From contig JAFXEJ010000163.1 of the NCBI GenBank assembly GCA_017513795.1, positions 1-32,903 of the forward strand: 32,903 nucleotides of DNA. Direction: 5' to 3'. The position numbers and the translations under genes are program-made. Source of the DNA: Ruminococcus sp. (lineage in GTDB: Bacteria; Bacillota; Clostridia; Oscillospirales; Ruminococcaceae). The first letter of the stretch is position 1, and each line of letters begins with the position of its first letter. The notes beneath the pieces were generated by a model, which made no database searches, was not told the DNA's origin, and was given only the letters and a program-made list of their open reading frames with translations. Shown in pieces: positions 6,911 to 24,423 of the stretch.

Positions 6911-6927
6911 TCAATCACAGGGGAATA

Positions 6928-6953
6928 TGTGACCGACATTTTTGTCGGTCGCA
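6928..6953 (+). promoter_or_regulatory. strong intergenic hairpin after capsid gene
   Basis: An 11-bp inverted repeat (TGTGACCGACA and TGTCGGTCGCA, one G-T wobble) with a TTTT loop lies between the capsid and head-fiber genes. No T-run follows, so it is unlikely to be an efficient intrinsic terminator; an mRNA-stabilising or processing role that raises capsid expression is more plausible. Confidence 0.6.
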
Positions 6954-6975
6954 AATCCCATAAAGGAGTGAAAAT

Positions 6976-7611
6976 ATGTATAATACAAAGAACTATACTG
7001 AACAGGGCGGCGATGTAACTCACATCGGCGGCAAGCTCGTATTTGACGAGGGTGCAGAGTTAATGCCGAATCAGGCAGCAGATACAGCAGGAACAACAGC
7101 AAGCCTGAAGGCTGCATTTAATTCGCTGCTTGTCAAGCTCAAAAACGCAGGACTTATGACCGGCGACGAGTGGGCTGCACCTACAGTCACAAAGGAAATA
7201 AACGATACGGTCGCAGGTCACGCAAACAGGCAGGCGAACACTAACGATATTTCTTCTGTTGCTGTATCAGGTAATGTAATTACGATCACGCTTTCAAAGA
7301 AAGTCAGTGCATTGAAGGACTTCAACGGCGGCAACGGCTGGGGCGTTCATAAGTGGCTCGGTATTGGCGTTCGTCCGTGGACTAATGCAATTACTGACCT
7401 TTACTATAACGGCTCAAAGCTCACAGCAGAGGACGTTTCTGAAGCTCAGAGCGTAGGACTTAACGACACAGGATATTTCGTTCGCTGGGTCGCTGCTGAT
7501 CTTGTACTCGCAGGAGATAACTCGCAGAAGTCAAAAGATACGTTCACAATCTGGGCTGACGGCTATCAGAAAGCAACATACAAGCTGAAAATTGTTGAGC
7601 CTACAACATAA
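6976..7611 (+). CDS. head fiber / capsid decoration-like protein
   Basis: 211 aa. The opening 'NTKNYTEQGGDVTHIGGKLVFDEGA' followed by 'LKAAFNSLLVKLKNAGLM' is the pattern of phage proteins annotated as head fibers (similar to the base of phi29 gp8.5), which sit on the capsid surface. The rest (about residues 75-211) is beta-rich, 'NDISSVAVSGNVITITLSKKVSALKDF' to 'DTFTIWADGYQKATYKLKIV', resembling an Ig-like or surface-adhesion domain. It is directly downstream of the capsid gene with AAAGGAGTG before ATG 6976. The first part is recognised with fair confidence; the function of the second domain is inferred. Confidence 0.65.
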   Translation: MYNTKNYTEQGGDVTHIGGKLVFDEGAELMPNQAADTAGTTASLKAAFNSLLVKLKNAGLMTGDEWAAPTVTKEINDTVAGHANRQANTNDISSVAVSGNVITITLSKKVSALKDFNGGNGWGVHKWLGIGVRPWTNAITDLYYNGSKLTAEDVSEAQSVGLNDTGYFVRWVAADLVLAGDNSQKSKDTFTIWADGYQKATYKLKIVEPTT

Positions 7612-7647
7612 GCAGCAGACAAAATATAACGAAAGGAAGTGCGAATC

Positions 7648-7938
7648 GTGAAAGTAAGTGAAATGACAGTCAATGATATAGTTGAATATTGCAGAATTGC
7701 AGAACCTTCAACAGCCGATAATGCTTTTCTCGAACAGGCTATAGAAGCCGCAAAAGCCTATATACGCAGTTATACAGGGCTGAACAATGACCGCATAGAC
7801 GAGCACGAAGATTTTGTAATCGTAGTATATATTCTTACTCAGGATATGTACGACAATAGATCACTATATACAGAAAGCAAAAGTCTGAACAATACAGTCG
7901 AGACAATACTCGGTATGCACTCGGTGAATCTGCTATGA
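7648..7938 (+). CDS. head-tail connector protein, HK97 gp6-like
   Basis: 96 aa if started at GTG 7648, which has AGGAAG 8 bases upstream; an in-frame GTG at 7639 overlaps that site and is less likely. The helical pattern 'VNDIVEYCRIAEPSTADNAFLEQAIEAAKAYIRSYTGLN' and 'DFVIVVYILTQDMYDNRSLYTESKSLNNTVETILGMHSVNLL' is typical of Gp6/SPP1 gp15-like adaptors that dock under the portal. It overlaps the next gene by 4 bases, as neck genes often do. Confidence 0.85.
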   Translation: MKVSEMTVNDIVEYCRIAEPSTADNAFLEQAIEAAKAYIRSYTGLNNDRIDEHEDFVIVVYILTQDMYDNRSLYTESKSLNNTVETILGMHSVNLL

Positions 7939-8261
7939 TTAACGCCGGAAAATACAACAAGAAAATTGAGATTTACAGTGAGACTGTAAACACAGACGCA
8001 CAGGGCTTTCAGACCACGTCAGAAACGCTTGTATTAACGACTTACGCAGCAGTAAAGACAACTAAAGGCTTTACGCTCATAGCCGCTAACAGCGATTTTG
8101 AAAAGGCGTACACGAACTTCACGATTCGCTATCCTCGTACTGAGATCAACAGGGATATGAGAATTCGATACAAGGGTAAAACCTACACGATTGAATATCT
8201 CAATAACGTGGACGAAGCCAACGTCGAGCTTGAAATTCAGGCAAAGGAAGTGACGCATTAA
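7935..8261 (+). CDS. head closure / head-tail joining protein
   Basis: 108 aa, a small beta-barrel protein: 'MINAGKYNKKIEIYSETVNTDAQGF', 'LVLTTYAAVKTTKGFT', 'NFTIRYPRTEINRDMRIRYKGKTYTIEYLNNVDEANVELEIQAKEV'. This is the signature of the phage head-tail joining family (SPP1 gp16/HK97 gp7 type), the plug closing the capsid after packaging. It overlaps its neighbours on both sides by 1-4 bases, implying coupled translation. Confidence 0.88.
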   Translation: MINAGKYNKKIEIYSETVNTDAQGFQTTSETLVLTTYAAVKTTKGFTLIAANSDFEKAYTNFTIRYPRTEINRDMRIRYKGKTYTIEYLNNVDEANVELEIQAKEVTH

Positions 8262-8680
8262 TGGCAAAGGCAAAGTTTGAGATACCGAAAGAACTTTTGA
8301 ATCAAGTCAAAAAGCTTGAACATGATACACCAGAAATGATGAAAGCTATGGTCGAAGCTGGGGCTGAGACAGTTCTCGAACGTATGAAATCAAACGCACC
8401 AGCAGGAATGAAAAGCAGCCCTATAATGAACTGCTTATCATCTACAAGACCATACGAAGCACCTTCTGACGATTCTATCAATGTGAAGGTCGGTTTTGCT
8501 GGATATTTTACCAACGAGGACGGAGTGAGGACACCTGCTCCGCTCGTAGCCAATATCTTTGAATACGGACGCAGCAATTCACCGTTCCCGAAGCAGCCAT
8601 TTATGCGAAAGTCGTTCAATAAGGGAGCTATAACGAAGGCTATGGAAGCAGTTCAAAAGAAATATATCCCGGAGGAATAA
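8261..8680 (+). CDS. neck / tail completion protein, HK97 gp10 family
   Basis: 139 aa with the HK97-gp10 pattern: helical N terminus 'PKELLNQVKKLEHDTPEMMKAMVEAGAETVLERMKSNAP', then 'INVKVGFAGYF', and near the end 'VANIFEYGRSNSPFPKQPFMRKSFNKG', where the 'E-(Y/F)-G-x4-PxxPFMR' segment is diagnostic. It takes part in joining head to tail. The start codon overlaps the stop of the head closure gene. Confidence 0.88.
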   Translation: MAKAKFEIPKELLNQVKKLEHDTPEMMKAMVEAGAETVLERMKSNAPAGMKSSPIMNCLSSTRPYEAPSDDSINVKVGFAGYFTNEDGVRTPAPLVANIFEYGRSNSPFPKQPFMRKSFNKGAITKAMEAVQKKYIPEE

Positions 8681-8682
8681 CA

Positions 8683-9027
8683 ATGAACGAGATCATTCAA
8701 GCAGCTTTCGACGGATTCAAAGTTGATAATGTTGAAATTCCTGTTAAATATCTTCATTACTTAGGGCATGGCGAACCCTATGTAACATATACGCCAACAG
8801 GCAATGGCAACGTATTTTCTGCCGACGACCAGATTCAAGATTATATCACGTATTATGATTTTGATATCTATTCAAAAGGCAATTACTACGCTATTGCTGA
8901 AGCAATCAAAACAATAATGCAAGCTAACAACTTTTCGTATGTTCCGTCTCAGGATTCAGCAGAAATGTTTGAATCTGACACCGGATATTATCATAAAACG
9001 TTATGCTTTGCAATTGAAAGGAGTTAA
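8683..9027 (+). CDS. tail terminator-like protein
   Basis: 114 aa. Position (after the gp10-like gene, before the major tail protein) and the pattern 'MNEIIQAAFDGFKVDNVEIPVKYLHYLGHGEPYVTYTPTGN' plus 'DYITYYDFDIYSKGNYYAIAEAIKTIMQANNFSYV' and 'DTGYYHKTLCFAIER' match small phage tail-terminator proteins that cap the tail tube. A GGAGGAA site precedes ATG 8683. The sequence alone gives a fair family match; synteny does the rest. Confidence 0.78.
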   Translation: MNEIIQAAFDGFKVDNVEIPVKYLHYLGHGEPYVTYTPTGNGNVFSADDQIQDYITYYDFDIYSKGNYYAIAEAIKTIMQANNFSYVPSQDSAEMFESDTGYYHKTLCFAIERS

Positions 9028-9032
9028 AAACT

Positions 9033-9779
9033 ATGGCAAAAATCGGTTTAAATAACCTGAAATTTGGCGTTCTCTCAGAGGTCGGTGAAACAGTTACTTA
9101 CGGTCCTATGCAGTCACTTGGTAAAGCTGTTTCTGCAAACGTAAGTATTACAAGCAACTCTGCCGTGCTTTACGCAGACGACGCTATTGCTGAGACTGAT
9201 AACACCTTCTCAAACGGTACTATCACTCTGACTGTTGACGACGACGGAGATACAGTATTTGCACCGCTTCTTGGTCACGAGATCAATTCAGATACCGGCG
9301 AAATGATAAGAAATAAGAACGACGAAGCACCATACGTAGGTGTCGGCAGAATCATCAACAAGATGAAGAATGGTGCAAGGCTTTACAAAGTCGAATTTCT
9401 TTCAAAGGTCAAGTTTGCTGAGCCTTCTCAGGAAAGCAATACACACGGAGAGACAACCGAGTTCGGCACTCAGCAGATAGAAGGAACTATCGCAACTCTT
9501 GAAAGCGGTCAGTGGAGCAAGACAAAAACCTTTACAACACATTCTGACGCTATCGCATATCTCGCAAGCTGCTTTGGTCAGACAGCAACTGCTGAAACCT
9601 TCGCAGGAGACGGCACAACTGCCGCATATACGCTTGCACATACACCTGCAACAATATTCACTGTAACTATTAACGGCACGCCTACAACGGCGTATAGCGT
9701 ATCAGGAACTACACTGACATTCGACGAAGCACCTTCTTCCGGTGCTGTGATCTATGTATCATACGCATATAACGCATAA
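9033..9779 (+). CDS. major tail tube protein, phi13 type, with C-terminal add-on domain
   Basis: 248 aa. Residues 1-185 match phi13/TP901-type tail tube proteins: 'GLNNLKFGVLSE', 'SLGKAVSANVSITSNSAVLYADDAIAETDN', 'FSNGTITLTVDDD' and 'YKVEFLSKVKFAEPSQESNTHGE'. The final ~60 residues, 'AETFAGDGTTAAYTLAHTPATIFTVTINGTPTTAYSVSGTTLTF', form a separate Thr/Ala-rich beta domain like the Ig-like decorations on many tail tubes, probably exposed on the tail surface. An intrinsic hairpin follows. Tube identity is firm; the add-on's role is inferred. Confidence 0.9.
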   Translation: MAKIGLNNLKFGVLSEVGETVTYGPMQSLGKAVSANVSITSNSAVLYADDAIAETDNTFSNGTITLTVDDDGDTVFAPLLGHEINSDTGEMIRNKNDEAPYVGVGRIINKMKNGARLYKVEFLSKVKFAEPSQESNTHGETTEFGTQQIEGTIATLESGQWSKTKTFTTHSDAIAYLASCFGQTATAETFAGDGTTAAYTLAHTPATIFTVTINGTPTTAYSVSGTTLTFDEAPSSGAVIYVSYAYNA

Positions 9780-9786
9780 AAATAAT

Positions 9787-9808
9787 GGGCTGGGGGAAAT
9801 CTCAGCCC
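9787..9808 (+). terminator. hairpin, likely partial terminator after tail tube gene
   Basis: GGGCTGGG and CTCAGCCC form an 8-bp stem (one G-T) with loop GGAAAT directly after the tail tube stop codon. The following tract ATTTATAAA is only weakly U-rich, so partial termination is more likely than full; this would lower transcription of the tail chaperones and tape measure relative to the tube protein. Confidence 0.6.
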
Positions 9809-9838
9809 ATTTATAAAAAAATTCAAAGGAGAATATAT

Positions 9839-10174
9839 ATGAAAGAGTTCTATCCCGAAATAACACTCAACGGCAAGAATTATCATTTATGCTTCAATCT
9901 TAACGTAATGGAAGCAATACAGGTAGAGTACGGCACTATCGACAAGTGGTCGGACCTTACAGCAGACGGCGACGCAAAAGCTATCAAATTCGGCTTTACA
10001 GAAATGCTGAATGAAGGTATAGACATAAAGAACGAGCAGGAAGGAACAGACGAAAAACCCTTCACCACAAAACAGGTCGGCAGACTTTTAACTGAACTCG
10101 GCTTTGAGAACGTCGGTAAAAAGATCAACGAAGCTATCGCCGTATCAAACAAAGACGAATCAAAAAACGAATAA
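9839..10174 (+). CDS. tail assembly chaperone, short (gpG-like) form
   Basis: 111 aa from ATG 9839, preceded by AAAGGAG; an upstream in-frame ATG at 9785 lies in the terminator hairpin and is rejected. The opening 'PEITLNGKNYHLCFNLNVMEAIQVEYGTIDKWSDL' and 'KPFTTKQVGRLLTELGFENVGKKINEAIAVS' match tail assembly chaperones of Firmicutes siphophages, which load onto the tape measure before the tube polymerises. The last codons read S-K-N-E-stop across A AAA AAC (10162-10168), a perfect -1 slippery heptamer in the correct phase, leading into the next frame. Confidence 0.88.
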   Translation: MKEFYPEITLNGKNYHLCFNLNVMEAIQVEYGTIDKWSDLTADGDAKAIKFGFTEMLNEGIDIKNEQEGTDEKPFTTKQVGRLLTELGFENVGKKINEAIAVSNKDESKNE

Positions 10175-10407
10175 TCCACTCAGATGATGAAATTGACCCA
10201 TATATCGAATTTGAGTGGTATTATATTACCGGCTTGAAAATGGGATTCACAGTGAAGGAAATAGGACACATGACCTTGCGAAAGTTCCGTCGCTATTACA
10301 AAGCATACAAGCAGAATTTCGATCTTGAATTGCTTCTTCTTCTCAGCCGCAAAACATATAGCAGTCTGGAAGAAGAAGCAGCAGACGATGAAGATTGGTT
10401 AAAATAA
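10162..10407 (+). CDS. tail assembly chaperone, -1 frameshift extension (gpGT-like)
   Basis: This open stretch lies between the short chaperone and the tape measure and has no start codon of its own in the early part. After a -1 slip on A AAA AAC at 10162-10168 the ribosome reads KKRIIHSDDEIDPYIEFEW and on to '...KMGFTVKEIGHMTLRKFRRYYKAYKQNFDLELLL' ending 'DDEDWLK' at TAA 10405-10407. The fusion would be about 189 aa from ATG 9839. This mirrors lambda gpG/gpGT and its Firmicutes equivalents, where the T part contacts the tape measure. The slippery site and phase are seen directly; slippage efficiency is inferred. Confidence 0.87.
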   Translation, partial: KKRIIHSDDEIDPYIEFEWYYITGLKMGFTVKEIGHMTLRKFRRYYKAYKQNFDLELLLLLSRKTYSSLEEEAADDEDWLK

Positions 10408-10419
10408 GGGGGTGACGAT

Positions 10420-13400
10420 ATGGCATTCGGTGGAGTTATCAAGCTGCAAGGTGAATCAGAATACAGGAAAGCCCTGTCCGACATTACTAACAGCTTGAAA
10501 GTTGTAGGCTCGGAGCTGAAAAAAGTTAGCTCGCTATATGATAGAAACGACACCAGCGTTGAAAAGTTATCCAGCACAAATGAAACCTTGACAAAAAAGC
10601 TCAGATTGCAGAATGACGCACTTGACAAGGCAAGAGATATGCTGAAAGAAGCTCAGTCCGGCTATGATAAAAGTGCGGATTCTGTCAAGGAGTGGCAGCA
10701 GAAACTTGAACAGGCAAGAACAGAGCTTGACCAAGCAAAGAGCAGCACAGAAGCGTCTGCTGACGAAATAGCTGATCTCGAAGCAAAGGTCAAGGACTGC
10801 GAAACAGAACTCGGCAAGGCTGAAGCCACTACAGCAAAGTACGATACGACCGTAAAACGCTGGACTGTAGAAGTTAACAACGCTGAGACAGCAGTAAACA
10901 AGACCACAAGAGAGATTGACAAAAACGAATCTGCAATCAAAGACCTTGAATCTGCAACAGATAACGCAACAGACGAAGTCGATGATCTTTCAGACAGCAT
11001 GGACGATCTTTCAGACAGCATGGACGACGCTTCTGATAAGTCCAAGAAGCTTGACGGTAGCTTCACGGTTTTAAAGGGAGCAATGGCAAATCTTGTTTCT
11101 CAGGGTATAAACTTCGTTATGGACGGCTTACACAATCTCGTAGGCGAAGCTGTTGACGCAGCAGATACTATGTACAAATTCGAGCAGACAATGGGCTTCG
11201 CAGGTTACGACGATGCGACTATCAAAAAGGCATCTGCCGACGTTAAAGATTATGCTGATAAAACAGTTTACAACCTTGATACCATAGCCAACACAACCGC
11301 CCAGCTCGCAGCAAATGGCATTAAAGATTATACCGGACTTACTCAGGCACTCGGAAACCTTAACGCTGTTGCCGGTGGTAACGCTGATACGTTTGCTTCC
11401 GTAGCATCTGCATTAACTCAGACAGCAGGAGCAGGAAAGCTGACCACTGAAAACTGGAATCAGATTGCAAATGCAATACCCGGCGCAAGCGGTAAGCTTC
11501 AGGAAGCACTGAAACAAGCCGGAGCATATACCGGAGACTTCAGGGAAGCTATGGCTAAAGGCGAGATTACCGCTGACGAATTCAACGAAGCTATAATGAA
11601 GCTCGGCAATGAGCCTGTAGCAGTAGAAGCAGCCACAAGCGTAGCAACTTTTGAGGGAGCTATCGGCAATATGCAAGCGACTGTTGTATCAGGTCTACAG
11701 GAAATTATTGCAGAAATCGGCATGGAAAATATAACCGAATTTCTTTCAAAGACGACAGACCTTATTGGTGACGTTATAAAGGGAGCAACTGACGCTGTAC
11801 GCTGGGTGAAAAGTAATCTGCCTGCCGTATTAACATTAGTTACAGGCTTAATGACAGCCTTTACAGCTCAGGTCGTCGCTAATAAAGTCGCTGTCATAGC
11901 AGCTACAGCAGCAGAAAAAGGAATGACAATAGCTCAGTATGCAGCAGCAACCGCACAGGGTGCATTGAATGCTGTTATGGCTGCAAATCCTATCGGGCTT
12001 ATAATAGCAGGTATAACGGCACTTGTAGCCGGATTTATGCTGTTATGGAAGAACTGCGAAGGCTTCAGAAAGTTCTGGATAAATTTGTGGGAAAATATCA
12101 AAAAAGCTTGGAACTCATTCAAGCAGAACTGGACTGCTGGCATGGACGCTATAAAAGTAACTATTGACAAGGTAAAAGCCGGATTCAATAATTTTGTCCA
12201 GAACATCAAAAAGGGCTTTGAATCTATCAAGGCATTTTTCGCAGCATTAAAAGCCAATTGGCAAGCTGGCTGGGAAAGTATCAAAAAAACTTTAAGTGAA
12301 GTATGGGAAAACATCAAGAACGTTGTGCAAACAGGGCTGATGTTCATAGCTGAAATTATTCAGTCAGCATTTGACCTTATAACGTTACCGTTCCGCTTCA
12401 TCTGGGAGAACTGTCACGAGACAATTACCGAAGTATGGAATACCATTATCGAATCGGTAACGGCAGCAATAACAGCAGTAAAAACTGTTATCGAGACAGT
12501 ATTCACAGCAATCCAGAATAAAATATCTGAAATCTGGACTGGAATATCAACAGTTATATCGACAGTCGTAACCGCTATAAAAGACAACATCACAGCTGTA
12601 TGGACTGCAATTAGCAGTGTTATAACGACAATCATAACAGCCATAAAAGACAAGATCACTGCCGTATTCAACGCAGTAAAGTCTTTTGTATCTACAGTTT
12701 GGGAAGCAATCAGGGCAACCATAGCTGACAAGATAGAAGCCGCAAAAAGCGTTATAACGAACGTTGTCAATGCTATATCCAGCACTATTACGAGCGTATT
12801 TAACAGCGTGAAATCGTTCGTTTCAAGCGTCTGGAATGGTATTAAGGAGTCTATATCAAATGCAATCACAGCCGCAAAAAACATCGTTTCTAACGTTGTA
12901 GACGGTATAAAAAGCAAGGTTACCGGAGTGTTTGACGCTTTAAAAAGCACAGTTACAAACGTTTGGAACGGTATCAAGAACGCAATCAAAACACCTATTG
13001 AAGCGGCTCGTGATATAGTCAAAAATGCAATAGACAAAATCAAAGGATTTTTCGATTTTGAATGGGAGCTTCCAAAGATAAAATTGCCACACTTCAGCAT
13101 AGACGGCAAATTTAGTTTGAATCCGCCTTCTGTACCACATTTTTCAGTTGATTGGTACGCAAAAGCTATGAACAATCCTATGCTGCTTGACAATCCAACA
13201 ATTTTTGGTATGCAGGGGAACAAACTTCTCGGAGCAGGTGAAGCAGGGGCAGAGGTTGTCGCCGGTGCTGATAAGCTCATGAGCATGATTCGCACCGCAG
13301 TAGATACAACAAGCAGACCAACAGCCGAGACTGATTTTCGCACTATGCTGAACGCTTTCAAGGCAGCATTACGAGAAATGAAAGTCGAAATGGATTCAGA

Positions 13401-13452
13401 CGAAATGGGAAGATTCGTCGAGAGAACAGTTGCTGACGCAATATACACATAA
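10420..13452 (+). CDS. tail tape measure protein
   Basis: 1010 aa, the largest gene, in the expected place. Residues about 1-210 are coiled coil ('LRLQNDALDKARDMLKEAQSGYDKS...'), with a perfect 21-bp tandem duplication giving DDLSDSM twice. Next comes the phage-tail minor-protein core with 'TAQLAANGIKDYTGLTQALGNLNAVAGGNADTFASVASALTQTAGAGKLTTENWNQIANAIPGASGKLQEAL', then hydrophobic segments 'AVLTLVTGLMTAFTAQVVANK' and 'ANPIGLIIAGITALVAGFMLLW'. The last third has repeated W-x-x-I-x-x-x-I helices. At about 0.15 nm per residue it predicts a tail near 150 nm. The start follows AAGGGGGTG. Confidence 0.95.
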   Translation: MAFGGVIKLQGESEYRKALSDITNSLKVVGSELKKVSSLYDRNDTSVEKLSSTNETLTKKLRLQNDALDKARDMLKEAQSGYDKSADSVKEWQQKLEQARTELDQAKSSTEASADEIADLEAKVKDCETELGKAEATTAKYDTTVKRWTVEVNNAETAVNKTTREIDKNESAIKDLESATDNATDEVDDLSDSMDDLSDSMDDASDKSKKLDGSFTVLKGAMANLVSQGINFVMDGLHNLVGEAVDAADTMYKFEQTMGFAGYDDATIKKASADVKDYADKTVYNLDTIANTTAQLAANGIKDYTGLTQALGNLNAVAGGNADTFASVASALTQTAGAGKLTTENWNQIANAIPGASGKLQEALKQAGAYTGDFREAMAKGEITADEFNEAIMKLGNEPVAVEAATSVATFEGAIGNMQATVVSGLQEIIAEIGMENITEFLSKTTDLIGDVIKGATDAVRWVKSNLPAVLTLVTGLMTAFTAQVVANKVAVIAATAAEKGMTIAQYAAATAQGALNAVMAANPIGLIIAGITALVAGFMLLWKNCEGFRKFWINLWENIKKAWNSFKQNWTAGMDAIKVTIDKVKAGFNNFVQNIKKGFESIKAFFAALKANWQAGWESIKKTLSEVWENIKNVVQTGLMFIAEIIQSAFDLITLPFRFIWENCHETITEVWNTIIESVTAAITAVKTVIETVFTAIQNKISEIWTGISTVISTVVTAIKDNITAVWTAISSVITTIITAIKDKITAVFNAVKSFVSTVWEAIRATIADKIEAAKSVITNVVNAISSTITSVFNSVKSFVSSVWNGIKESISNAITAAKNIVSNVVDGIKSKVTGVFDALKSTVTNVWNGIKNAIKTPIEAARDIVKNAIDKIKGFFDFEWELPKIKLPHFSIDGKFSLNPPSVPHFSVDWYAKAMNNPMLLDNPTIFGMQGNKLLGAGEAGAEVVAGADKLMSMIRTAVDTTSRPTAETDFRTMLNAFKAALREMKVEMDSDEMGRFVERTVADAIYT
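10984..11025 (+). repeat. 21-bp perfect tandem duplication within tape measure gene
   Basis: Two adjacent identical 21-base units beginning GATCTTTCAGACAGCATGG encode DDLSDSM twice. In-frame duplications in tape measure genes lengthen the protein and so the tail by about one nanometre; the identity of the copies suggests a recent event. Confidence 0.85.
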
Positions 13453-13465
13453 GGGGTGACAATGA

Positions 13466-14182
13466 ATGAATTATATTATTCTTAACGGTACGAAAAGTAC
13501 AATCGTACAAGGGCTTTTGATTCAGAAATTGCCGCCAATATCAAAGCCACAGATCAGGACAAATATTGAGACAATAGACGGTCGAGACGGCGATATAATC
13601 ACAAAGCTTGGATATGCTGCATACGATAAAGAGCTTTCAATCGGACTGAAAAAAGACGCTAATGTTAATGATGTAATATCTTATTTTGTTAATAATGATT
13701 CTGGAAAAATTATTTTTAGCAACGAGCCTGATTTTTATTATCTGTTTAACCTTCTTGAAGCTATAGATTTTGAACGGTTGATTCGATACAAACAAGCAAT
13801 TGTAACGTATCATATTCAGCCGTTCAAATATAAAATGTCTGAAGGAACTCAGGAACTAAACTATAATTCGACTGATTCTAATACCGTAGTAAATTCTGGG
13901 AATATATATAGCAAGCCTATACTCACTATTAGAGCAATTGGCACAATCACCATTAAGCTTAACAACCGAACAATATTTACGATAAATATTGGCAGTTCTA
14001 CGGCTCAAACTATCATAATTGATACAGCAGCTATGGAAGCATACGACAATAATGGTAATCTTAAAAACAGAATTGTTACAGGTAATTACGATGATTTCTA
14101 TTTTCCTGTGGGTGCAAATATTATCACAATTACTGGTGAAGTCATTAAGTGTAACATTCAGAATTATTCGAGGTGGATATAA
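13466..14182 (+). CDS. distal tail protein (Dit)
   Basis: 238 aa following the tape measure, as Dit does in Gram-positive siphophages. The N-terminal half has the ring-domain pattern 'LIQKLPPISKPQIRTNIETIDGRDGDIITKLGYAAYDKELSIGLK' and 'KIIFSNEPDFYYLFNLLEAIDFERLIRYKQAIVTYHIQPFKYKMSE'; the C-terminal half, 'GNIYSKPILTIRAIGTITIKLNNRTIF', is a galectin-like beta domain. Dit forms the hub linking tail tube to baseplate. AAGGGGTG precedes the start. It is contiguous with the next small gene. Confidence 0.87.
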   Translation: MNYIILNGTKSTIVQGLLIQKLPPISKPQIRTNIETIDGRDGDIITKLGYAAYDKELSIGLKKDANVNDVISYFVNNDSGKIIFSNEPDFYYLFNLLEAIDFERLIRYKQAIVTYHIQPFKYKMSEGTQELNYNSTDSNTVVNSGNIYSKPILTIRAIGTITIKLNNRTIFTINIGSSTAQTIIIDTAAMEAYDNNGNLKNRIVTGNYDDFYFPVGANIITITGEVIKCNIQNYSRWI

Positions 14183-14365
14183 ATGAAAATTGAACTAAAA
14201 AAAATCAAGATACTCGAACCACCTGTCAAGATCAAGGCAGGATTTCGCACAATTAATGGCGGTGGTGATGAACCTATCAAGCCAAACGTTCAGATCGCAA
14301 CTGCAATACAAATCACAGGTGGAATTATTTCTGAAGTAATTGGAAACGCAGATATTGATGAATAA
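14183..14365 (+). CDS. small hypothetical tail-region protein
   Basis: 60 aa, starting one base after the Dit stop codon, with GAGGTGG as ribosome site. Sequence: lysine-rich start 'KIELKKIKILEPPVKIKAGFRTINGGGDEPIKP', then a hydrophobic/beta C terminus ending GNADIDE. I do not recognise a family. Its tight linkage to Dit and the next structural genes suggests a small baseplate or chaperone role, but nothing in the sequence proves it. Confidence 0.6.
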   Translation: MKIELKKIKILEPPVKIKAGFRTINGGGDEPIKPNVQIATAIQITGGIISEVIGNADIDE

Positions 14366-14378
14366 GGAGTGTTAATAA

Positions 14379-14975
14379 ATGGCAATAAATAAAACGATCT
14401 TTTCCAGTACCACAGCCCAAACTAATGCGGCTGATGTTACTGCTTGGTTACAGGCTAACGCTACAGAATATTTTGCAAGTATTACAAACGAATCAAACAT
14501 CATAACCTGCACAATAGCTGGTGGCGGTCAATTAGTTATAAAACCGGACCAAAGAGAATGGCAAGTTGTTTTAAAAAATGGTACATCAATAGTCATAGAT
14601 CATTACGGAACAAATGACAAAGTAGGAGAAGCATATGTAACGAGTAAGGGAATTGCTTTACGTTCCGGTGATATGTGGATATTTGTAGTTAAGTCTAATT
14701 CAGATACTATTGGCATTGTATTTAATGCTACTAACAATAACGATAATATAATTTTTGCTGATTTTTATTTTAGTACAAGTTTTTTTGGTGATCTAAATAA
14801 TACAAAACACCTTCATGCTGGAATGACCTCACTTTGTTTATGCCCTCTTGGCAATGGTGGAACATACGGGGAAGGATTATATTTTGTTCCTTTCTACGAG
14901 TACAATTCAAGCGGATTGATATATGTAAACGGAAAATCATATGTATATAGCGTATTTATGGCTCTCGAAGAATAA
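14379..14975 (+). CDS. tail-region structural protein, unknown function
   Basis: 198 aa, no recognised domain. It is beta-rich with many Asn, Thr and Gly residues: 'AADVTAWLQANATEYFASITNESNIITCTIAGGGQLVIKP', 'GIALRSGDMWIFVVKSNSDTIGIVFNATNNND', and an aromatic C-terminal part 'GEGLYFVPFYEYNSSGLIYVNGKSYVYS'. No signal peptide or transmembrane segment. The region is more AT-rich and Asn-rich than the flanking genes, as host-range genes often are. Position between Dit and Tal favours a baseplate or adhesin component. AAGGAGTG precedes ATG 14379. Confidence 0.6.
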   Translation: MAINKTIFSSTTAQTNAADVTAWLQANATEYFASITNESNIITCTIAGGGQLVIKPDQREWQVVLKNGTSIVIDHYGTNDKVGEAYVTSKGIALRSGDMWIFVVKSNSDTIGIVFNATNNNDNIIFADFYFSTSFFGDLNNTKHLHAGMTSLCLCPLGNGGTYGEGLYFVPFYEYNSSGLIYVNGKSYVYSVFMALEE

Positions 14976-14989
14976 AAGGGGGAATAAAG

Positions 14990-15601
14990 ATGAATATTGA
15001 TCTTATACGTGGCGACACGCTCAATATACAGTTTGAACTTGAATCTGATACTGTTATAAGCCTTGAAAGTGATAGCTTTGATGTAGCTTTTTCAGTAAAG
15101 CAAGCAGCAACTGACGGAAATTATACTTTCCAGAAAGGAAAATCTGCTGTAACAGAAATAGGTGAAAACACCTTCATAATGCGTATAGCTCCTGCCGATA
15201 CTGAAAACTTAATTCCCGGCTGGTATTACTATGATTTGCAGCTCACAATTGGTAATGATATTTATACAATCGCAATCGGAAAATTACAGCTTATAAGGGA
15301 TATAACATTGCCGCCGAACTCTTTACCTACTTTCATTTATCCGGACGTAAACGGAGACGGAACTGTTGATTCTCAGGACGCATTGTTAATTCTTACGGCT
15401 TATATGAATATTGGAGCTGGTTTGCCTTCAGGGCTTACAGAAGAACAAGAAAACATTGCCGATTGCAACAGAGACGGTGCGATAGACAGTACTGACGCAT
15501 CTCTTGTATCGCTATTCATTACCGAATGTGAACAGGGTAAATACGTCAATAATTCTAATGGCTGGACTGAATTTATGATAAATCATTATAACGTGGGGTG
15601 A
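14990..15601 (+). CDS. baseplate/tail protein with C-terminal dockerin-like domain
   Basis: 203 aa. Residues 1-106 are a beta-sandwich like baseplate upper-protein N domains: 'MNIDLIRGDTLNIQFEL' to 'GWYYYDLQLTIGNDIYTIAIGKLQLIRDIT'. After a Pro-rich linker (107-118) come two calcium F-hand loops of dockerin type: D119, N121, D123, D127, D130 in 'DVNGDGTVDSQDALLIL', and D158, N160, D162, D166, D169 in 'DCNRDGAIDSTDASLVSLF', about 39 residues apart, each followed by a helix. A 26-residue tail follows. Dockerins bind cohesins on cell-surface scaffoldins of Ruminococcus and Clostridium, so this virion protein may attach to host cellulosome or amylosome, or recruit an enzyme. The repeats are seen; partner and function are inferred. 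Confidence 0.85.
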   Translation: MNIDLIRGDTLNIQFELESDTVISLESDSFDVAFSVKQAATDGNYTFQKGKSAVTEIGENTFIMRIAPADTENLIPGWYYYDLQLTIGNDIYTIAIGKLQLIRDITLPPNSLPTFIYPDVNGDGTVDSQDALLILTAYMNIGAGLPSGLTEEQENIADCNRDGAIDSTDASLVSLFITECEQGKYVNNSNGWTEFMINHYNVG

Positions 15602-15607
15602 TTCTAC

Positions 15608-17260
15608 GTGATAAAAATATTCGGTAAAACCGATACTGAATTCAGTAGTAACGGTGATAAAATCCTTCAGCCTACAAAATGCAGAATTCATAAAAGGGAT
15701 AATGGTGAATATTATGCTGAAATCGAATGTAGTCCTGAGTATTCTGAATATATTCAGAACGGCAATATCGTTGTTTGTCCAACACCTACAGGGGAACAGC
15801 CTTTTCGATTCTTGAATCCTGAGATCAATAAAAGCAAAATCAAAGTAAAGGCAAAGCACCGATATTATGATTCAGAAAATTATCTGATACAGGATTCAAA
15901 CGTCGTCAATAAAAACTGCAATCAAGCACTCGAACACCTTAACGCTGCAACAGACAATGAAAGCCCTTTTACAACCGTTTCAGATGTTACGAGTATAAAT
16001 TCATTCAGGTGTGTACGAAAGTCGCTTAACGAAGCTGTAAGCACCGTTCTTGAACGTTGGGGCGGTCACCTTGTACGAGATAATAATATTATCGGTATAA
16101 GATCATCAATCGGAGCCGACAATGGCGTTACAATCAGGTATGGCAAAAACCTGAAGGAAATCCAGAAAACTGAAGACTGGAGCAACGTCGTTACAAAGCT
16201 GATGCCGGTCGGTAAAGACGGATTGCTGCTTGTCGAAATATATCTATACTCAGATACACAATACGAGCTGCCGTACACAAAAACGGTGTCATTCACTCAG
16301 GAAATCGAAAAGGCAGAAGGGGAAACTGACGACGCATACAAATTCAGGCTGCAAGAGGATTTAAGACAGCAAGCAACGGCGTATTTGACCGCCAACTGTG
16401 TACCGAAGATAAATTATACCGTCAAGGCAAATATCGAAAGAATAACCGATATTGGTGATACAATAGACGTTATTGACGAAACTCTCGGAATCAGTTTGAC
16501 AACGCACGTTATCGCCTTTGAGTATGACGCTATTCTCGAGAAGTTCATACAGGTTGAATTCGGAAACTCAAAGGAAAAGCTATCAAACTTAATGTCGAAC
16601 GTATCAGCCGAGACAAGTCAGCAGATCACGGAACGAGATCAAGAACTTTCCGTAAAACTATCTGAAGAACTTTCCGAAGCAGCAGACAAAATATGGGGTG
16701 CTCTCGGGAACTCATACTGCATATACGAAGGAAATCAGATACTTGTCGTTGATAAGCTTCCAAAGGAAGAAGCAACAAACGTTATGCTAATCAATTCAGC
16801 CGGAATTGGCTTTTCAACTTCAGGAATTAACGGAGCTTTCACATCTGCATGGACCTTAGACGGTACACTTAATATGCAGGCTATTAACGTTATAAATCTT
16901 GTGGCTGATCTTATCAAAGGCGGCACTTTGAAACTCGGTTCAAATCTTAACGAATACGGTCAAATTCAGATATACAATGAAGCTAATACCTTAATCGGAA
17001 AGTTTGACAAAGACGGCGTTATTCTATACGGTACAAACGGAACATATCTCGTTATTAATCCAGTAGTCGGATTTGCTGGCTACGATTCAGACGGAAATTT
17101 GACTTTCTGGGTATCTGAGGACGAATTTCATATGAAAAAATCAGTCGTTGAAGAAGAAATAACGCTGTGTAACAAGGTTCGATTTATTCCAATAACTTTA
17201 TACGATACAGACGGCACTACCGTAATAAACGACGGTATCGGGCTTGTATCAACGAACTAA
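15608..17260 (+). CDS. tail-associated lysin / prophage endopeptidase tail protein (Tal)
   Basis: 550 aa. GTG 15608 is the start, with GGGGTG 7 bases upstream. The N-terminal ~330 residues match the Gp44/prophage-endopeptidase-tail fold: 'CRIHKRDNGEYYAEIECSPEYSEYIQNGNIVVCPTPTGEQPFRF', 'VKAKHRYYDSENYLI', 'VRKSLNEAVSTVLERWGGHLVRDNNIIGI', 'EWSNVV'-like 'DWSNVVTKLMPVGKDGLLL', 'YLTANCVPKINYTVKANIERITDIGDTIDVIDETLGI'. The remainder is helical then beta-rich ('GTLKLGSNLNEYGQIQIYNEANTLIGKFDKDGVILYG'), typical of tail-fiber attachment regions. It closes the tail tip. No obvious catalytic domain is visible, so enzymatic activity is uncertain. Confidence 0.85.
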   Translation: MIKIFGKTDTEFSSNGDKILQPTKCRIHKRDNGEYYAEIECSPEYSEYIQNGNIVVCPTPTGEQPFRFLNPEINKSKIKVKAKHRYYDSENYLIQDSNVVNKNCNQALEHLNAATDNESPFTTVSDVTSINSFRCVRKSLNEAVSTVLERWGGHLVRDNNIIGIRSSIGADNGVTIRYGKNLKEIQKTEDWSNVVTKLMPVGKDGLLLVEIYLYSDTQYELPYTKTVSFTQEIEKAEGETDDAYKFRLQEDLRQQATAYLTANCVPKINYTVKANIERITDIGDTIDVIDETLGISLTTHVIAFEYDAILEKFIQVEFGNSKEKLSNLMSNVSAETSQQITERDQELSVKLSEELSEAADKIWGALGNSYCIYEGNQILVVDKLPKEEATNVMLINSAGIGFSTSGINGAFTSAWTLDGTLNMQAINVINLVADLIKGGTLKLGSNLNEYGQIQIYNEANTLIGKFDKDGVILYGTNGTYLVINPVVGFAGYDSDGNLTFWVSEDEFHMKKSVVEEEITLCNKVRFIPITLYDTDGTTVINDGIGLVSTN

Positions 17261-17272
17261 AGGGGTGATACA

Positions 17273-19123
17273 ATGGCAAGCTCCGGAAGCTTTAACACGA
17301 CAGGCTATCAGGGCAGATATTTGACGTTTGCGTGGTCGGTATCGTCTCAGAGTGTAGCCAATAATACAACCACTATTGCATGGACCTTGAAAGGAGCAGG
17401 AACAGCACAGTCGAGCTGGTACAGGTCAGGAAATTTCAAAGTCGTTATAAACGGCTCGACTGTATACTCGTCAAGCACACGAATTCAGCTCTATGACGGC
17501 ACGCTCGTGGCTTCAGGTAATTTTACTATGACGCATGATACAGCCGGAAATAAGACCTTTTCTGCGTCTGCTGAAGCCGGTATTTATACAGTAGCCGTCA
17601 ACTGCTCCGGCTCTGGCTCGTTCACACTTCCACAAATAGCAAGGGCGGCAAAGATCACAGCCGCACCAAATTTTACTGACATTCAGAATCCGACGATAAA
17701 TTATCAGAACTCGGCAGGGAACAGCGTTACGACTTTACAGGCTTGCATATCGCTTACAGGCAGCACGGACAATATATCGTACAGAGATATTCCGAAAACC
17801 GGCACGTCGTATACGTTCCAGCTTACAGAAGCAGAACGAAACGTCCTCAGAGCAGCGACACCAAACTCAAATACGCTCTCGGTGATATTCTACATCAAAA
17901 CGGTAATATCAGGTCAGACGTACTACGAGACAGCAACCAGAACAATGACAATTGTTGACGCTGCACCCACAATGGCAAATCCGACGTATCAGGACAGCAA
18001 CAGCACCACGGCAGCTATTACTGAGAATAATCAAAAGATCATTCAGAAGCAAAGCAGCCTGACGATTGCAATTCCAGCAGCAACAGCACAGAAGTACGCC
18101 ACGATAACGAAGTATCAAGTTACAATAAACGGCGTAACAAGGGAGCAGGCAGCAGCAGGAAATATGAGCTGGGGCGTTCTCGACGTTTCAAGTAACATCA
18201 CGGCAACGGTGAAGGCAATTGACAGCAGGGGGAACAGCGTTACGAAGTCGCTTCAGATCACAGTGGAAGCATGGCAGCAGCCATACGCTGTTATATCCTG
18301 CTCCCGAGAAAATAATTTCTATACGGACACCGTTCTGAACGTCTCTCCGACCGTTTCAAGCCTATCTGGTAAAAATAGTGTAACTATATCAGAACAGCAT
18401 AAAAAAACGACTGACAGCTCGTACAGCACGCCTTTGAGCGTATCAGCGAACACTGATACAACAATTCAGCTCGACAACCATTACGACTGGAATGTGAAAA
18501 TAATCGTTTCTGACCGGTTAGCTTCAACAACGTATAATATCACAGTCCAGAAGGGTATGCCAATCGTATATTACGACCGCCTGAAAAGCTCTACCGGCTT
18601 CAATTGCTTTCCAACAAATGAAAACAGCGTAGAAAGTCAGGGGCTTGCACTCGACGACGTAATATATATAGGCTCGCAGCAGCTTTACGACCGATACGAC
18701 TTCACAGCTACAGCAGGAACTGTCTCGCTACTCGGTGCATACGACTACAGACTTATCGAAGGCATTTTCAACGGCTTCACGATACCGGACGCATACGAGA
18801 AGGCGTACAGGCTCACGGCACAGATCACTACGAACAATAGCAATCACATAGGTGCAGAAATAGGTGGAATGACCTGCTCGGGATGTACATGGAGTGGTAA
18901 CACCTTTTTGACATTAGTATCGAGTGGAATAGTCAAGGAATCTGATTTGACACTCGAACCTGTTTTCAATTACAGCAGCAGAACTGGACTGAATTTGAAG
19001 GTCACTAACTCAGATGCATATACCGGAACAATTCTCGCAATAACTCTGCACGGCTATATCGTGAAAAAGACATCATCATTCGCAAGTGTATCAAATTACA
19101 TAGCAGACGAACCTGCTACATAA
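17273..19123 (+). CDS. large receptor-binding-type minor structural protein (DUF859-like)
   Basis: 616 aa. N terminus 'MASSGSFNTTGYQGRYLTFAWSVSSQSVANNTTTIAWTLKGAG' and 'FTMTHDTAGNKTFSASAEAGIY..VNCSGSGSFTLPQIARA' are hallmarks of the DUF859-type phage minor structural family, followed by several fibronectin/Ig-like beta repeats and a C-terminal unique domain (about 470-616) with 'VIYIGSQQLYDRYDFTATAGTVSLLGAYDYRLIEGIF'. Thr/Ser-rich, no transmembrane segment. Being last in the tail block before the lysis genes, it is the best candidate for the main adhesin or tail fiber. Role in host recognition is inferred. Confidence 0.8.
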   Translation: MASSGSFNTTGYQGRYLTFAWSVSSQSVANNTTTIAWTLKGAGTAQSSWYRSGNFKVVINGSTVYSSSTRIQLYDGTLVASGNFTMTHDTAGNKTFSASAEAGIYTVAVNCSGSGSFTLPQIARAAKITAAPNFTDIQNPTINYQNSAGNSVTTLQACISLTGSTDNISYRDIPKTGTSYTFQLTEAERNVLRAATPNSNTLSVIFYIKTVISGQTYYETATRTMTIVDAAPTMANPTYQDSNSTTAAITENNQKIIQKQSSLTIAIPAATAQKYATITKYQVTINGVTREQAAAGNMSWGVLDVSSNITATVKAIDSRGNSVTKSLQITVEAWQQPYAVISCSRENNFYTDTVLNVSPTVSSLSGKNSVTISEQHKKTTDSSYSTPLSVSANTDTTIQLDNHYDWNVKIIVSDRLASTTYNITVQKGMPIVYYDRLKSSTGFNCFPTNENSVESQGLALDDVIYIGSQQLYDRYDFTATAGTVSLLGAYDYRLIEGIFNGFTIPDAYEKAYRLTAQITTNNSNHIGAEIGGMTCSGCTWSGNTFLTLVSSGIVKESDLTLEPVFNYSSRTGLNLKVTNSDAYTGTILAITLHGYIVKKTSSFASVSNYIADEPAT

Positions 19124-19136
19124 AAGGAGTATAAAA

Positions 19137-19391
19137 ATGGATAGTTCAATCATCGTTTCGATAGTATCAGCAGCAGCAACCATATCCGGCGTTATTATAT
19201 CCACAAAAGCAAGTAATCGAGAAATACAGCATAAATTGGAAACGCACCAAGCCGTGATTGATACTAAGATAGACAACTTGGCTGTAGCAGTGAACAAGCA
19301 CAACCATTTTGCAGAGCGAATGCCGGTAGTCGAAGAGCAGATCAAAGTTATAAATCATCGGCTCGAAGACCTTGAAAGGAGAGATAAATGA
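19137..19391 (+). CDS. XhlA-like membrane-associated lysis cassette protein
   Basis: 84 aa. One N-terminal membrane segment 'SIIVSIVSAAATISGVIIST' (residues ~3-23), then a charged helical stretch 'NREIQHKLETHQAVIDTKIDNLAVAVNKHNHFAERMPVVEEQIKVINHRLEDLERRDK', a coiled coil. The 'KHN.FAERMPVVEEQIKVI.HR..DLE' ending is common in phage proteins preceding holins (hemolysin XhlA-like). It overlaps the next small membrane gene by the ATGA motif at 19388-19391, pointing to co-translation. Likely a holin partner or spanin-like accessory. Confidence 0.75.
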   Translation: MDSSIIVSIVSAAATISGVIISTKASNREIQHKLETHQAVIDTKIDNLAVAVNKHNHFAERMPVVEEQIKVINHRLEDLERRDK

Positions 19392-19561
19392 AAGAGAAGT
19401 TATGCAAGCTTATTGACGTGAAATCTCTTGTCACGCTGACGCTCACAGGCGTTATGGCGTATCTCAGTATATCAGGCAGGGAAGTGTCTGAAACCTTCAA
19501 GACAATTTACGTTATGATTATAGGATTTTATTTTGGCACTCAGACAACAAAAAAACAGTAA
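19388..19561 (+). CDS. small holin-like membrane protein
   Basis: 57 aa, short but clear: 'KLIDVKSLVTLTLTGVMAYLSISGREVSETFKTIYVMIIGFYFGTQTTKKQ'. Two hydrophobic segments (about 11-27 and 38-52) joined by a short polar turn, ending in a basic tail, fit a class II-type holin. The 'IDVKSLVTL' and 'FYFGTQ' motifs recur in Clostridia-phage proteins at this position. It starts in the ATGA overlap with the XhlA-like gene and is followed at once by a strong terminator. The endolysin lies elsewhere, at 31673-32479, so lysis functions are split. Confidence 0.75.
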   Translation: MKEKLCKLIDVKSLVTLTLTGVMAYLSISGREVSETFKTIYVMIIGFYFGTQTTKKQ

Positions 19562-19595
19562 AAAAAAAGGCAGCTATTCGGCTGCCTTTTTTTTT
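19562..19595. terminator. bidirectional intrinsic terminator between converging operons
   Basis: GGCAGC (19569-19574) and GCTGCC (19581-19586) flank a TATTCG loop, with an A-run before and a run of nine T after. It can stop the rightward virion transcript and, read on the other strand, the leftward accessory operon, whose last stop codon lies in the loop. Confidence 0.92.
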
Positions 19596-19774
19596 GCGTA
19601 TTCTTCAATCTTTTCAATGCACCAACGTTCAAGGTATGGAGCAGGTTTACGCTCGCCATAACACCAGTTATGAAACGTTCTCAGCGGTATTTCTTCAGCT
19701 CGTGCAAACTCTGACATTTTAATACCGTACTTGTCAAGGGCTTCTCGAATAGAGTTCTTTTCATTCATAATCAA
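19574..19774 (-). CDS. small XRE/HTH-like DNA-binding protein
   Basis: 66 aa: 'NSIREALDKYGIKMSEFARAEEIPLRTFHNWCYGERKPAPYLERWCIEKIEEYAKKKAAE'. The 'MSEFARAEEIPLRTFHNWCYGERKPAPY' segment is a helix-turn-helix like those in XRE regulators. It is the last gene of the leftward operon, its stop codon lying in the terminator loop, and overlaps the preceding gene by 14 bases. It could be a repressor of this operon or a regulator of host genes; the target is unknown. Confidence 0.65.
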   Translation of the reverse strand: MIMNEKNSIREALDKYGIKMSEFARAEEIPLRTFHNWCYGERKPAPYLERWCIEKIEEYAKKKAAE

Positions 19775-19994
19775 AATACCTCGTTTCTTTTAATTTTTGC
19801 TCGAATAGTTTGGCTTTTCCATAGAAAAAACCTGAATCATAATCGTTGTCAACTACTTCGGATAATTGCATATACATTTTTGCAGCCCTTCTGAGCTTTA
19901 TCCTCTTTTTTAATATCTTAGCTTTTGGAGATATCAGATCATACAAGCTCGAAACTGCAAAAGCCAAAAGGAAAACCTGTAGAAATTCTGTCAT
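19761..19994 (-). CDS. hypothetical small membrane-anchored protein
   Basis: About 77 aa. N-terminal hydrophobic segment 'EFLQVFLLAFAVSSLYDLI' could be a membrane anchor, followed by a basic stretch 'SPKAKILKKRIKLRRAAK' (positive-inside) and an acidic-aromatic C-terminal part 'VVDNDYDSGFFYGKAKLFEQKLKETRYFDYE'. I recognise no family. An alternative GTG start three codons upstream overlaps the preceding stop as GTGA. It lies in an operon with an HTH protein and ArdA. Confidence 0.5.
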   Translation of the reverse strand: MTEFLQVFLLAFAVSSLYDLISPKAKILKKRIKLRRAAKMYMQLSEVVDNDYDSGFFYGKAKLFEQKLKETRYFDYE

Positions 19995-19999
19995 TGTTC

Positions 20000-20230
20000 T
20001 CACTTCTTTCTAAAATTATTTTTATAGAACGTCTCGATACAGGCTTTTGAATTTTCATCCACCTTATTGCACTCGACTTGCATATTTTCCAACTGCCTAC
20101 GATATGATCTATAATTATCGCAGAACTTGTGACAGCCTATCGCCCTATTTTTACAGTGGTGGCATAAACATTTGAGCATTGCTTTCAACTCCTTCATATT
20201 TGCCGTATAACGACGTTGAACGTTTGGCAT
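20000..20230 (-). CDS. hypothetical Cys/His-rich small protein
   Basis: 76 aa with 'LKCLCHHCKNRAIGCHKFCDNYRSYRRQLENM', where five Cys and several His could bind zinc. I know of similar small C-x2-C-x-K phage proteins but cannot name a family. ATG 20230 lacks a well-placed ribosome site: AGGAG lies 18 bases upstream, next to a hairpin. An internal ATG at residue 12 (20197) is possible. Conserved operon position supports a real gene. Confidence 0.45.
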   Translation of the reverse strand: MPNVQRRYTANMKELKAMLKCLCHHCKNRAIGCHKFCDNYRSYRRQLENMQVECNKVDENSKACIETFYKNNFRKK

Positions 20231-20302: not shown

Positions 20303-20824
20303 TTATTTATAAATTTTTATGTAGCCTGATTCTGTTTCAACAAAGCTTCCGTTTATTTCCATATCCCTGCCGTATGCTTCAAAGTCAAAGTAATAACGAA
20401 GATCATCAGGAATGTTTGAAAGAAGTCCTATCTCGTCTGCGTATTGTTCAGCGACTTCTGCCATAGAGCAGCAGCCTGAATAATACATATAGTCTCCGTC
20501 CTGTACCTTCTTTAGAGCTTCATCTGTAGCGTAGCCATATTCCAGCATTGCCCCGAACGCTTCAAGCTCGTACTCGTCGAAGTTTTCAAGTTCTTCTGCA
20601 AGCTCGTTCAGATCATCAAGGCTTGCGTATTCGCTTATGCTCAGTCCGTTTATGTCTGTCTCGTAGTCGCTGATGAAAGATTCTTCATACATAGTTCCGT
20701 CTGCAACTCCGATCTCGTCATAAGCTGCACATATTTCCTCAGTAGTAGCAGGAAGCACCAGCCTTGTGAAGATCAGCTCGCCTTCGTTGTATTTTCCTAA
20801 GTTAGTTAAACATAATTCAATCAT
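20303..20824 (-). CDS. ardA: antirestriction protein ArdA
   Basis: 173 aa, very acidic, a DNA mimic that occupies type I restriction enzymes. Family signatures: 'LTNLGKYNEGELIFTRLVLPATTEEICAAYDEIGV', 'EESFISDYETDINGLSISEYASLDDLNELAEELE', and 'DLRYYFDFEAYGRDMEINGSFVETESGYIKIY'. Length is close to the usual 160-175. Start ATG 20824 has AAAGGAG 8 bases upstream. The leader just above it holds a tandem GGTTTTGGTTT repeat (plus-strand view) complementary to a candidate small RNA encoded at 21370-21445, suggesting post-transcriptional control of early antirestriction. It implies the host uses type I restriction. Confidence 0.93.
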   Translation of the reverse strand: MIELCLTNLGKYNEGELIFTRLVLPATTEEICAAYDEIGVADGTMYEESFISDYETDINGLSISEYASLDDLNELAEELENFDEYELEAFGAMLEYGYATDEALKKVQDGDYMYYSGCCSMAEVAEQYADEIGLLSNIPDDLRYYFDFEAYGRDMEINGSFVETESGYIKIYK

Positions 20825-24410: not shown

Positions 24411-24423
24411 AAGATCACCGCCT

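Follow-up and report, generated by a model that had tools for sequence, protein, structure and literature searches.

We report that a tail-region protein of a siphophage from a Ruminococcus genome assembly carries a genuine type I dockerin, and we think it probable that the virion docks by this module on the ScaE-type anchoring scaffoldin of its host, as a grip for adsorption. The stretch of DNA that was analyzed (hereafter the window; 32,903 bases) is one whole contig, G000:C163, of a 163-contig, 2.56-Mb genome assembly, and the open reading frame (ORF) in question, 14990-15601, specifies a protein of 203 amino acids (aa). Comparing sequences and gene orders, we infer that the protein is incorporated in the virion, that its dockerin is displayed outward, and that it binds ScaE and serves adsorption. 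An earlier reading made from the letters alone (the sequence-only reading) had suggested docking on host scaffoldin, and this is the best reading because a dockerin profile match, a baseplate gene block, and phages of a cellulosome-bearing genus come together.

Results

The features of the dockerin protein are listed below.

14990..15601, + strand: N-domain::dockerin protein, 203 aa, baseplate region (PF00404 and phrog_1084)
14993..15307, + strand: N-domain, residues 2-106 (phrog_1084, 8.9e-14)
15341..15511, + strand: dockerin type I domain, residues 118-174 (PF00404; same place in a six-frame genome search)
15344..15379, + strand: calcium (F-hand) loop 1, residues 119-130 (sequence; conserved ligands)
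15371..15376, + strand: presumed cohesin-recognition pair of repeat 1, S128 and Q129, loop positions 10 and 11 (analogy with ScaH)
15461..15496, + strand: calcium (F-hand) loop 2, residues 158-169 (sequence; conserved ligands)
15488..15493, + strand: presumed cohesin-recognition pair of repeat 2, S167 and T168 (analogy with ScaH)
15512..15577, + strand: C-terminal end of the module with the G-W..FM motif (conserved in phage dockerins)

Residues 118-174 match the Pfam family Dockerin_1 (PF00404, profile positions 2-53 of 57) with an E-value of 7.1e-12 and 45.8 bits, the curated cut-off being 22.9 bits. A chance EF-hand, which the sequence-only reading had named as one finding that would undo it, was rejected: the best EF-hand models gave only 15, 13.8, and 13.7 bits, each under its cut-off (∼25). 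The dockerin which that reading had placed on a protein encoded between the distal tail protein (Dit) and the tail-associated protein (Tal) was confirmed, both neighbors also matching their profiles, and the ten calcium ligands that it had named (D119, N121, D123, D127, and D130; D158, N160, D162, D166, and D169) are all present at those residues, so that both 12-residue loops are complete. Eight of the ten ligands are invariant in five aligned phages, the exceptions being D127 and D166, as are G191, W192, F195, and M196 of the C-terminal motif; the G and W of this motif are nearly invariant among ten phage dockerins of both types described below. Positions of the recognition pair were assigned by alignment to the ScaH dockerin, whose pair is Gly-Arg (PMC5301203).

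The N-domain matches phrog_1084, a family of unknown function, and weakly phrog_5774 (head-tail joining, 5e-4). No Pfam family was found for residues 2-106 at E 0.1, hence no BppU family profile match, and the term 'BppU-like' would denote a resemblance in gene place. Homologs are present by tblastn in 13 Lactobacillus phage records, 11 of them at 35.5–37.3% over residues 2-106 and two, both phiLdb records, at 31.3% with the match continuing into the next gene; the homolog in PMBT4 is a separate gene after a tail component gene and is annotated 'baseplate protein'. The earlier description of this domain as baseplate-type is therefore upheld in part, by gene order and by the label of the PMBT4 homolog, but not by any Pfam family or by a known function of phrog_1084. 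The 203-aa protein begins MNIDLIRGDT, shows no signal peptide by eye, and has no enzyme or scaffoldin partner domain. A stray host gene was rejected as an explanation, as the dockerin gene has tail genes on both sides and recurs in many phages.

Six phage sequences, the window included, share the N-domain::dockerin protein. Four relatives were found in IMG/VR (L011, 97%; L012, 63%; L013, 61%; L121, 60%), and a fifth, L287, came from a dockerin-only IMG/VR scan in which at least 16 loci were confirmed among the matches listed (600 stretches), which is no census. All five keep both domains, with the gene between Dit and Tal and directly before Tal, and the calcium ligands are retained while identity drops to ∼60%.

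Searching the genus with the window protein revealed a second architecture, in prophages whose Dit carries the dockerin at its C-terminus and is encoded directly after the tape measure gene. Counted with an alignment of six such proteins (A2), Dit::dockerin occurs in 19 of 125 genus genomes, whole in 18 and split over two contigs in one (G138). Among 45 relatives found in IMG/VR, 42 encode Dit and dockerin within a single ORF; L118 and L119 have a 147-aa Dit without dockerin, and L120 is cut by a contig end. Many Dit::dockerins are near-copies, with 42 distinct C-termini among all that were fetched. An adjoining downstream ORF longer than 150 aa is present at 52 of the 63 loci with a Dit match and is Tal-like in 50 of the 52, the other two being those of the two dockerin-free Dits. 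At these two loci (L118 and L119) the ORF after Dit is 403 aa long and not Tal-like by phmmer; they represent related phages with another adhesion device. The phage of G012 has a 708-aa gene between Dit::dockerin and Tal (6914-9040 in L101, 5914-8040 in L134), so Tal comes one gene later. At L062 (G147:C28, ORF 1-2232), Dit::dockerin ends an open frame of at least 743 aa (1329 aa in another search); it may be fused to the preceding gene, or a stop may have been missed.

Records for 15 loci include the named Ruminococcus flavefaciens UBA3730, UBA2900, and NALB_7963_3, the remainder being assemblies called Ruminococcus, Oscillospiraceae, or Clostridia; the proposed tie to starch degraders was not borne out, the named hosts including R. 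flavefaciens and other Ruminococcus. Three prophages, G012:C13 (347 kb), G073:C12, and G143:C1, are integrated, because their contigs reach at least 334 kb, as judged for the latter two from where other matches fall on them. Dit::dockerin also has matches in 24 records of phages with other hosts (mainly Streptococcus and lactobacilli), all of which stop at or before residue 128, within the Dit body. In a sample of 394 genomes from the order, covering 168 genera, matches at E 1e-18 were confined to G000 and G027, both of this genus; the other 392 gave none. Dockerin-bearing tail proteins are thus restricted, in the genomes searched, to the cohesin-bearing genus Ruminococcus.

A phage gene might have captured a host dockerin by chance or neutrally, to no function, and donors are plentiful in so dockerin-rich a genus (78 dockerin matches in the bin genome, G000); yet we give this reading hardly any credence: the module occurs in two baseplate architectures, the Dit-fused forms have 42 C-termini that differ, the calcium ligands are conserved, and a single copy is present in 18 of 19 virus records. 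The ratio of nonsynonymous to synonymous substitution rates (dN/dS) in the dockerin is low, 0 to 0.30 where computable; of eight Dit::dockerin pairs, one (L087/L084) gave no result, and numerous dS values are above 1, some of them saturated. The dockerin module appears to be maintained by selection.

Across 15 prophage-host pairs, taken as a set, the two recognition residues of the phage dockerin agree 2.5 times better with the host's own anchoring dockerins than with those of other hosts. Mean identity at loop positions 10 and 11 was 0.442 with the ScaB/CttA dockerins of the phage's own host and 0.175 with those of other hosts, an excess that none of 20,000 shuffles reached (permutation p 5e-5); without two near-duplicates (G073 and G114; 13 pairs left), the values were 0.452 and 0.164. 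Individual pairs illustrate the agreement: DGTDAT in G030 with DGTDAT and TGMDST in its phage, DGRDAT in G060 with DNRDAA and DGRDAT, NGSDAT in G144 with TGSDAT, and DAVDAT and DTVDAT in G082 with DSVDST twice. When phylogeny is left aside, the phage has G at position 10 in five of six G-type hosts and in none of nine others (Fisher p 0.002). Related phages living in related hosts could be the source of part of the own-host excess.

A tree of 81 dockerins, from which identical, short (<60 aa), and X-bearing sequences were left out, places all 35 phage rows in one 39-row set (support 92/96) that includes four host rows and dockerins of both baseplate types, and G000's own dockerins in a separate clade (99/99), although the tree has few columns, many open forks, and only rough support. 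The simplest reading of these relationships would be one or few phage dockerin lineages that have been passed between baseplate proteins, the recognition pair following the host.

As for the cohesin that would receive it, the best solved relative of the phage dockerin is the ScaH dockerin (8ajy_B, 1.1e-6). R. flavefaciens group-4 dockerins, ScaH included, bind ScaE, which is covalently attached to the cell envelope (PMC5301203), Gly-Arg recognition pairs occur in the dockerins of ScaH and of a peptidase (PMC5301203), and group 4 comprises internally symmetric dockerins (PMC2930009). In the G000 stretches, 67 ORFs match the phage-dockerin profile at E up to 1. Those identical over their last 40 residues were counted once, except that L168 and L183 were both counted although they have a dockerin stretch in common. 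Ten are host ORFs at 40.6–76 bits that mostly carry a GSDAT motif; the remaining ORFs reach at most 19.4 bits, many having the group-1 signature 'IMQ..GNP'. Internal symmetry of the group-4-like dockerins was judged by eye, and the second repeat of L121 has the Gly-Arg pair of ScaH. By this comparison the window dockerin belongs to a group-4-like class, the class that binds ScaE in R. flavefaciens, although the profile that assigns it was made from dockerins of phages, among them that of the window. This narrows the likely partner to a cell-wall-anchored ScaE-type cohesin. Separately, L235 (G023:C36) encodes three neighboring host proteins with near-identical group-4-like dockerins.

The cohesin family PF00963 is present in all 20 of the genomes that harbor a phage of either type, namely G000 with the window and 19 with prophages, and exceeds the cut-off in 19, so that cohesins, whose absence from plausible hosts the sequence-only reading had listed as a way to fail, were found throughout. 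A sca-like cluster in G030, its genes named by analogy with R. flavefaciens, encodes ScaC, ScaA, ScaB with a C-terminal dockerin, a CttA-like protein with a dockerin, and a ScaE-like protein bearing a cell-wall sorting signal. In G000, C158 holds a ScaC-like gene and a cut scaffoldin, and the last 95 residues of a ScaE-like protein (84% identical) lie at the edge of C98. This bin genome yielded no ScaB/CttA-type dockerin, perhaps for lack of assembly.

The same profile found PF00963 in none of 19 virus records, which may be fragments; 18 of them have one dockerin gene (the two dockerin rows of G164 lie in one 338-aa frame and were counted as one), and the record of L119, the phage with a dockerin-free Dit, has none. 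A cohesin encoded by the phage itself was accordingly rejected as far as the profile reaches. This result bears on the proposal that the dockerin has a structural role as a calcium module, mating with a phage-made cohesin-like domain and so joining baseplate parts. BppU-type proteins do hold receptor-binding proteins (PMC7291167), and the adjoining 198-aa ORF of the window has no Pfam family; but no cohesin was detected by profile in those possibly fragmentary records, where a diverged fold could escape notice, the neighboring ORF is missing from L121 and L287, and across the prophage set the recognition residues track the host. We regard such a phage-internal joint as very unlikely.

The finding of cohesins in host genomes but in none of the virus records also suits a different idea, in which the dockerin binds cohesins mainly on shed or fiber-bound cellulosomes and retains the released virion on plant fiber, at which further hosts arrive, rather than acting as an adsorption ligand; in R. 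flavefaciens the scaffoldins form large assemblies outside the cell (PMC5301203). The phage dockerin, however, resembles in class the ScaE binders and not groups 1, 3, and 6, which serve ScaA, ScaB, and ScaC sites, and a position on or adjacent to Dit would suit contact with a cell. Retention on fiber therefore seems to us unlikely, while deserving some weight.

The sequence-only reading had also proposed that the virion borrows a cohesin-bearing host enzyme, or a hydrolase-loaded scaffoldin, to cut the cell surface and reach the wall. This would follow from dockerin chemistry, and small cohesin proteins other than ScaE are present in R. flavefaciens (PMC5301203), but we found nothing for the proposal beyond the dockerin itself. 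No cohesin-bearing wall hydrolase was met, though no search was aimed at one, and the phage itself encodes Tal and a GH25-LysM lysin; we consider a borrowed enzyme highly improbable.

The host of the window phage was approached through spacers of clustered regularly interspaced short palindromic repeats (CRISPR). Arrays in two other genomes of the genus, G007 (L279, G007:C27; 66 repeats, 65 spacers) and G010 (L280, G010:C41; 56 repeats, 55 spacers), contain four and six spacers, respectively, against the window, a total of 10 of 120 as compared to 0 of 2400 shuffled spacers; the matches have 91–100% identity, those covering less than 80% of the spacer having been dropped. Short spacer-like matches in G138 and G133 lie where there is no array. 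The search used window positions 1-20000 and scored few candidates per genome, so a lack of matches elsewhere means little. Because spacers of both genomes match the window, the phage or its close kin meets several Ruminococcus species. The two arrays also hold spacers against L011, L012, L013, and L121, which are useful for host assignment. By recognition pair, the window agrees best with the S-type hosts G147 and G032 (0.50). G000 was rejected as a proven host, since the window is a whole contig, its pairs differ from those of G000, and the spacers point to G007 and G010.

The window encodes terminase, portal, major head protein, major tail protein, tape measure, Dit, and Tal, as well as replication genes and the lysin, and is thus a siphophage. 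The tail genes around the dockerin gene are listed below.

10420..13452, + strand: tape measure protein (PF20155, 6.1e-38; phrog_58, 1.8e-117)
13466..14182, + strand: Dit (distal tail protein), without dockerin (phrog_33, 2e-30; TIGR01633, 26.3 bits, cut-off 23.65)
14379..14975, + strand: 198-aa ORF between Dit and the dockerin gene (comparison with relatives)
15608..17260, + strand: Tal (tail-associated, Prophage_tail; PF06605, 3e-26; TIGR01665, 3.2e-31)

The window shares with L011, L012, and L013 an ORF placed between Dit and the dockerin gene, and it has a 60-aa ORF there as well. The 198-aa ORF has no Pfam match, is strongly diverged in L012 and L013, and is a candidate host-range or decoration protein. 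Elsewhere in the window, a glycosyltransferase gene at 926-1813 (+ strand; phrog_842, beta-glucosyl-HMC-alpha-glucosyltransferase family, 2.6e-73) adjoins a ParB-like gene and may point to modified phage DNA, a PAPS-reductase-like gene (PF01507) lies among the replication genes at 23367-24500 (− strand), and an ArdA anti-restriction gene (PF07275, 3.1e-34) is found at 20303-20824 (− strand).

Discussion

In the mechanism that we favor, docking on ScaE, the dockerin protein would form part of the siphophage baseplate and display its dockerin outside the tail tip. In siphophages the hub of the tail tip is a Dit hexamer, and in TP901-1 the BppU N-domains attach binding proteins around that hub (both from PMC7291167); a dockerin carried by Dit or by an attached protein would hence be present in several copies at the tip. 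There it would imitate the anchoring dockerins of the host (ScaB, CttA, and other group-4 proteins) and plug, in a calcium-dependent manner, into the ScaE-type cohesin, which in cellulosomal ruminococci is linked covalently to the wall. The resulting grip would be species-matched and of high affinity, like that of the cellulosome's own anchor, and would hold the cell first, with Tal and other receptor-binding proteins acting afterwards.

Several observations weigh against this account. One concerns the window itself: its SQ and ST pairs differ from those of the G000 group-4 dockerins (mostly GS), and agreement with the ScaB/CttA-type dockerins of the CRISPR-bearing G007 and G010 is 0.00 each. 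This mismatch with the genomes whose spacers target the phage is the chief finding against a strict one-to-one key. Within the prophage set, three pairs are weak (G123, 0.12; G014, 0.25; G147, 0.25), and control helix positions 15, 16, and 18-22 also show an own-host excess, albeit a smaller one (0.326 vs. 0.257, p 5e-5). Only 15 of the 19 prophage genomes were usable, with no ScaB/CttA-type dockerin found in G075, G085, G138, and G139, and G032, G082, G127, and G147 each contributed a single dockerin of this type. Phylogenetically independent pairs numbered one when restricted to supported branches and four on all branches, an underpowered control. On the side of the receptor, the cohesin match of G139 falls below the cut-off, the same search matches two of 14 control genomes (one above the cut-off), and a ScaE-like match is missing in two of 23 genomes, with G000 and G075 having C-terminal pieces only.

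If the docking account is true, the cellulosome anchor, which fiber-digesting gut bacteria can hardly give up, doubles as a phage handle, and a receptor is identified for phages of R. flavefaciens-like bacteria. It would mean that a cohesin-dockerin pair is used in a virion, a use not found in the literature searched, and that the recognition pair of a phage dockerin possibly offers a rule for predicting the host. There would also be a testable reason for the differing cohesin-dockerin specificities of related rumen species: we put forward, tentatively and as less than probable, that the ScaE socket is a phage receptor and that pressure from phages helps to drive the divergence of anchoring cohesin-dockerin pairs between Ruminococcus species.

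Among known systems, the R. flavefaciens group-4 dockerins (ScaH, ScaF, CttA, and ScaB) are alike in having two near-symmetric calcium repeats and a recognition pair at the same loop positions. They differ in that the phage protein has no signal peptide by eye and keeps the C-terminal G-W..FM motif, and in that its recognition pair varies between phages (SQ/ST in the window). The 'evolved Dit' of lactococcal, streptococcal, and Lactobacillus phages carries an accessory host-binding module, there a carbohydrate-binding module (PMC7291167). That module is inserted in the galectin domain, whereas the dockerin is C-terminal on a short Dit or on a separate protein, and its target would be a protein socket rather than a sugar; only the Dit::dockerin phages have an extra, putatively host-binding module on Dit, the window's Dit having none. 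BppU of TP901-1 and the BppU-domain receptor-binding protein of Listeria phage PSA share the plan of a small hub-attaching N-domain and a C-terminal binding module (PMC7291167). In the window protein hub attachment would be by analogy, the N-domain has no Pfam match, there is no long linker, and the C-terminal module is a dockerin. Phages of L. delbrueckii (PMBT4 and phiLdb) have a homologous N-domain at the same gene place, after a tail component gene, but their phrog_1084-type proteins are 111–112 aa long with nothing fused, and the host is of another genus.

Dockerins have been mentioned in two other phages: in gene 40 of Vibrio phage VvAW1 the 'dockerin' is a BLAST resemblance without an assigned function, and Gp02 of E. 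coli phage HSE2 is structurally similar to PDB 2wz8, a carbohydrate-binding module of a dockerin protein. The union of a dockerin with a siphophage adhesion device was not found in the open-access literature searched, which did not cover preprints. The dockerin was already known, as was the siphophage adhesion device with an accessory binding module.
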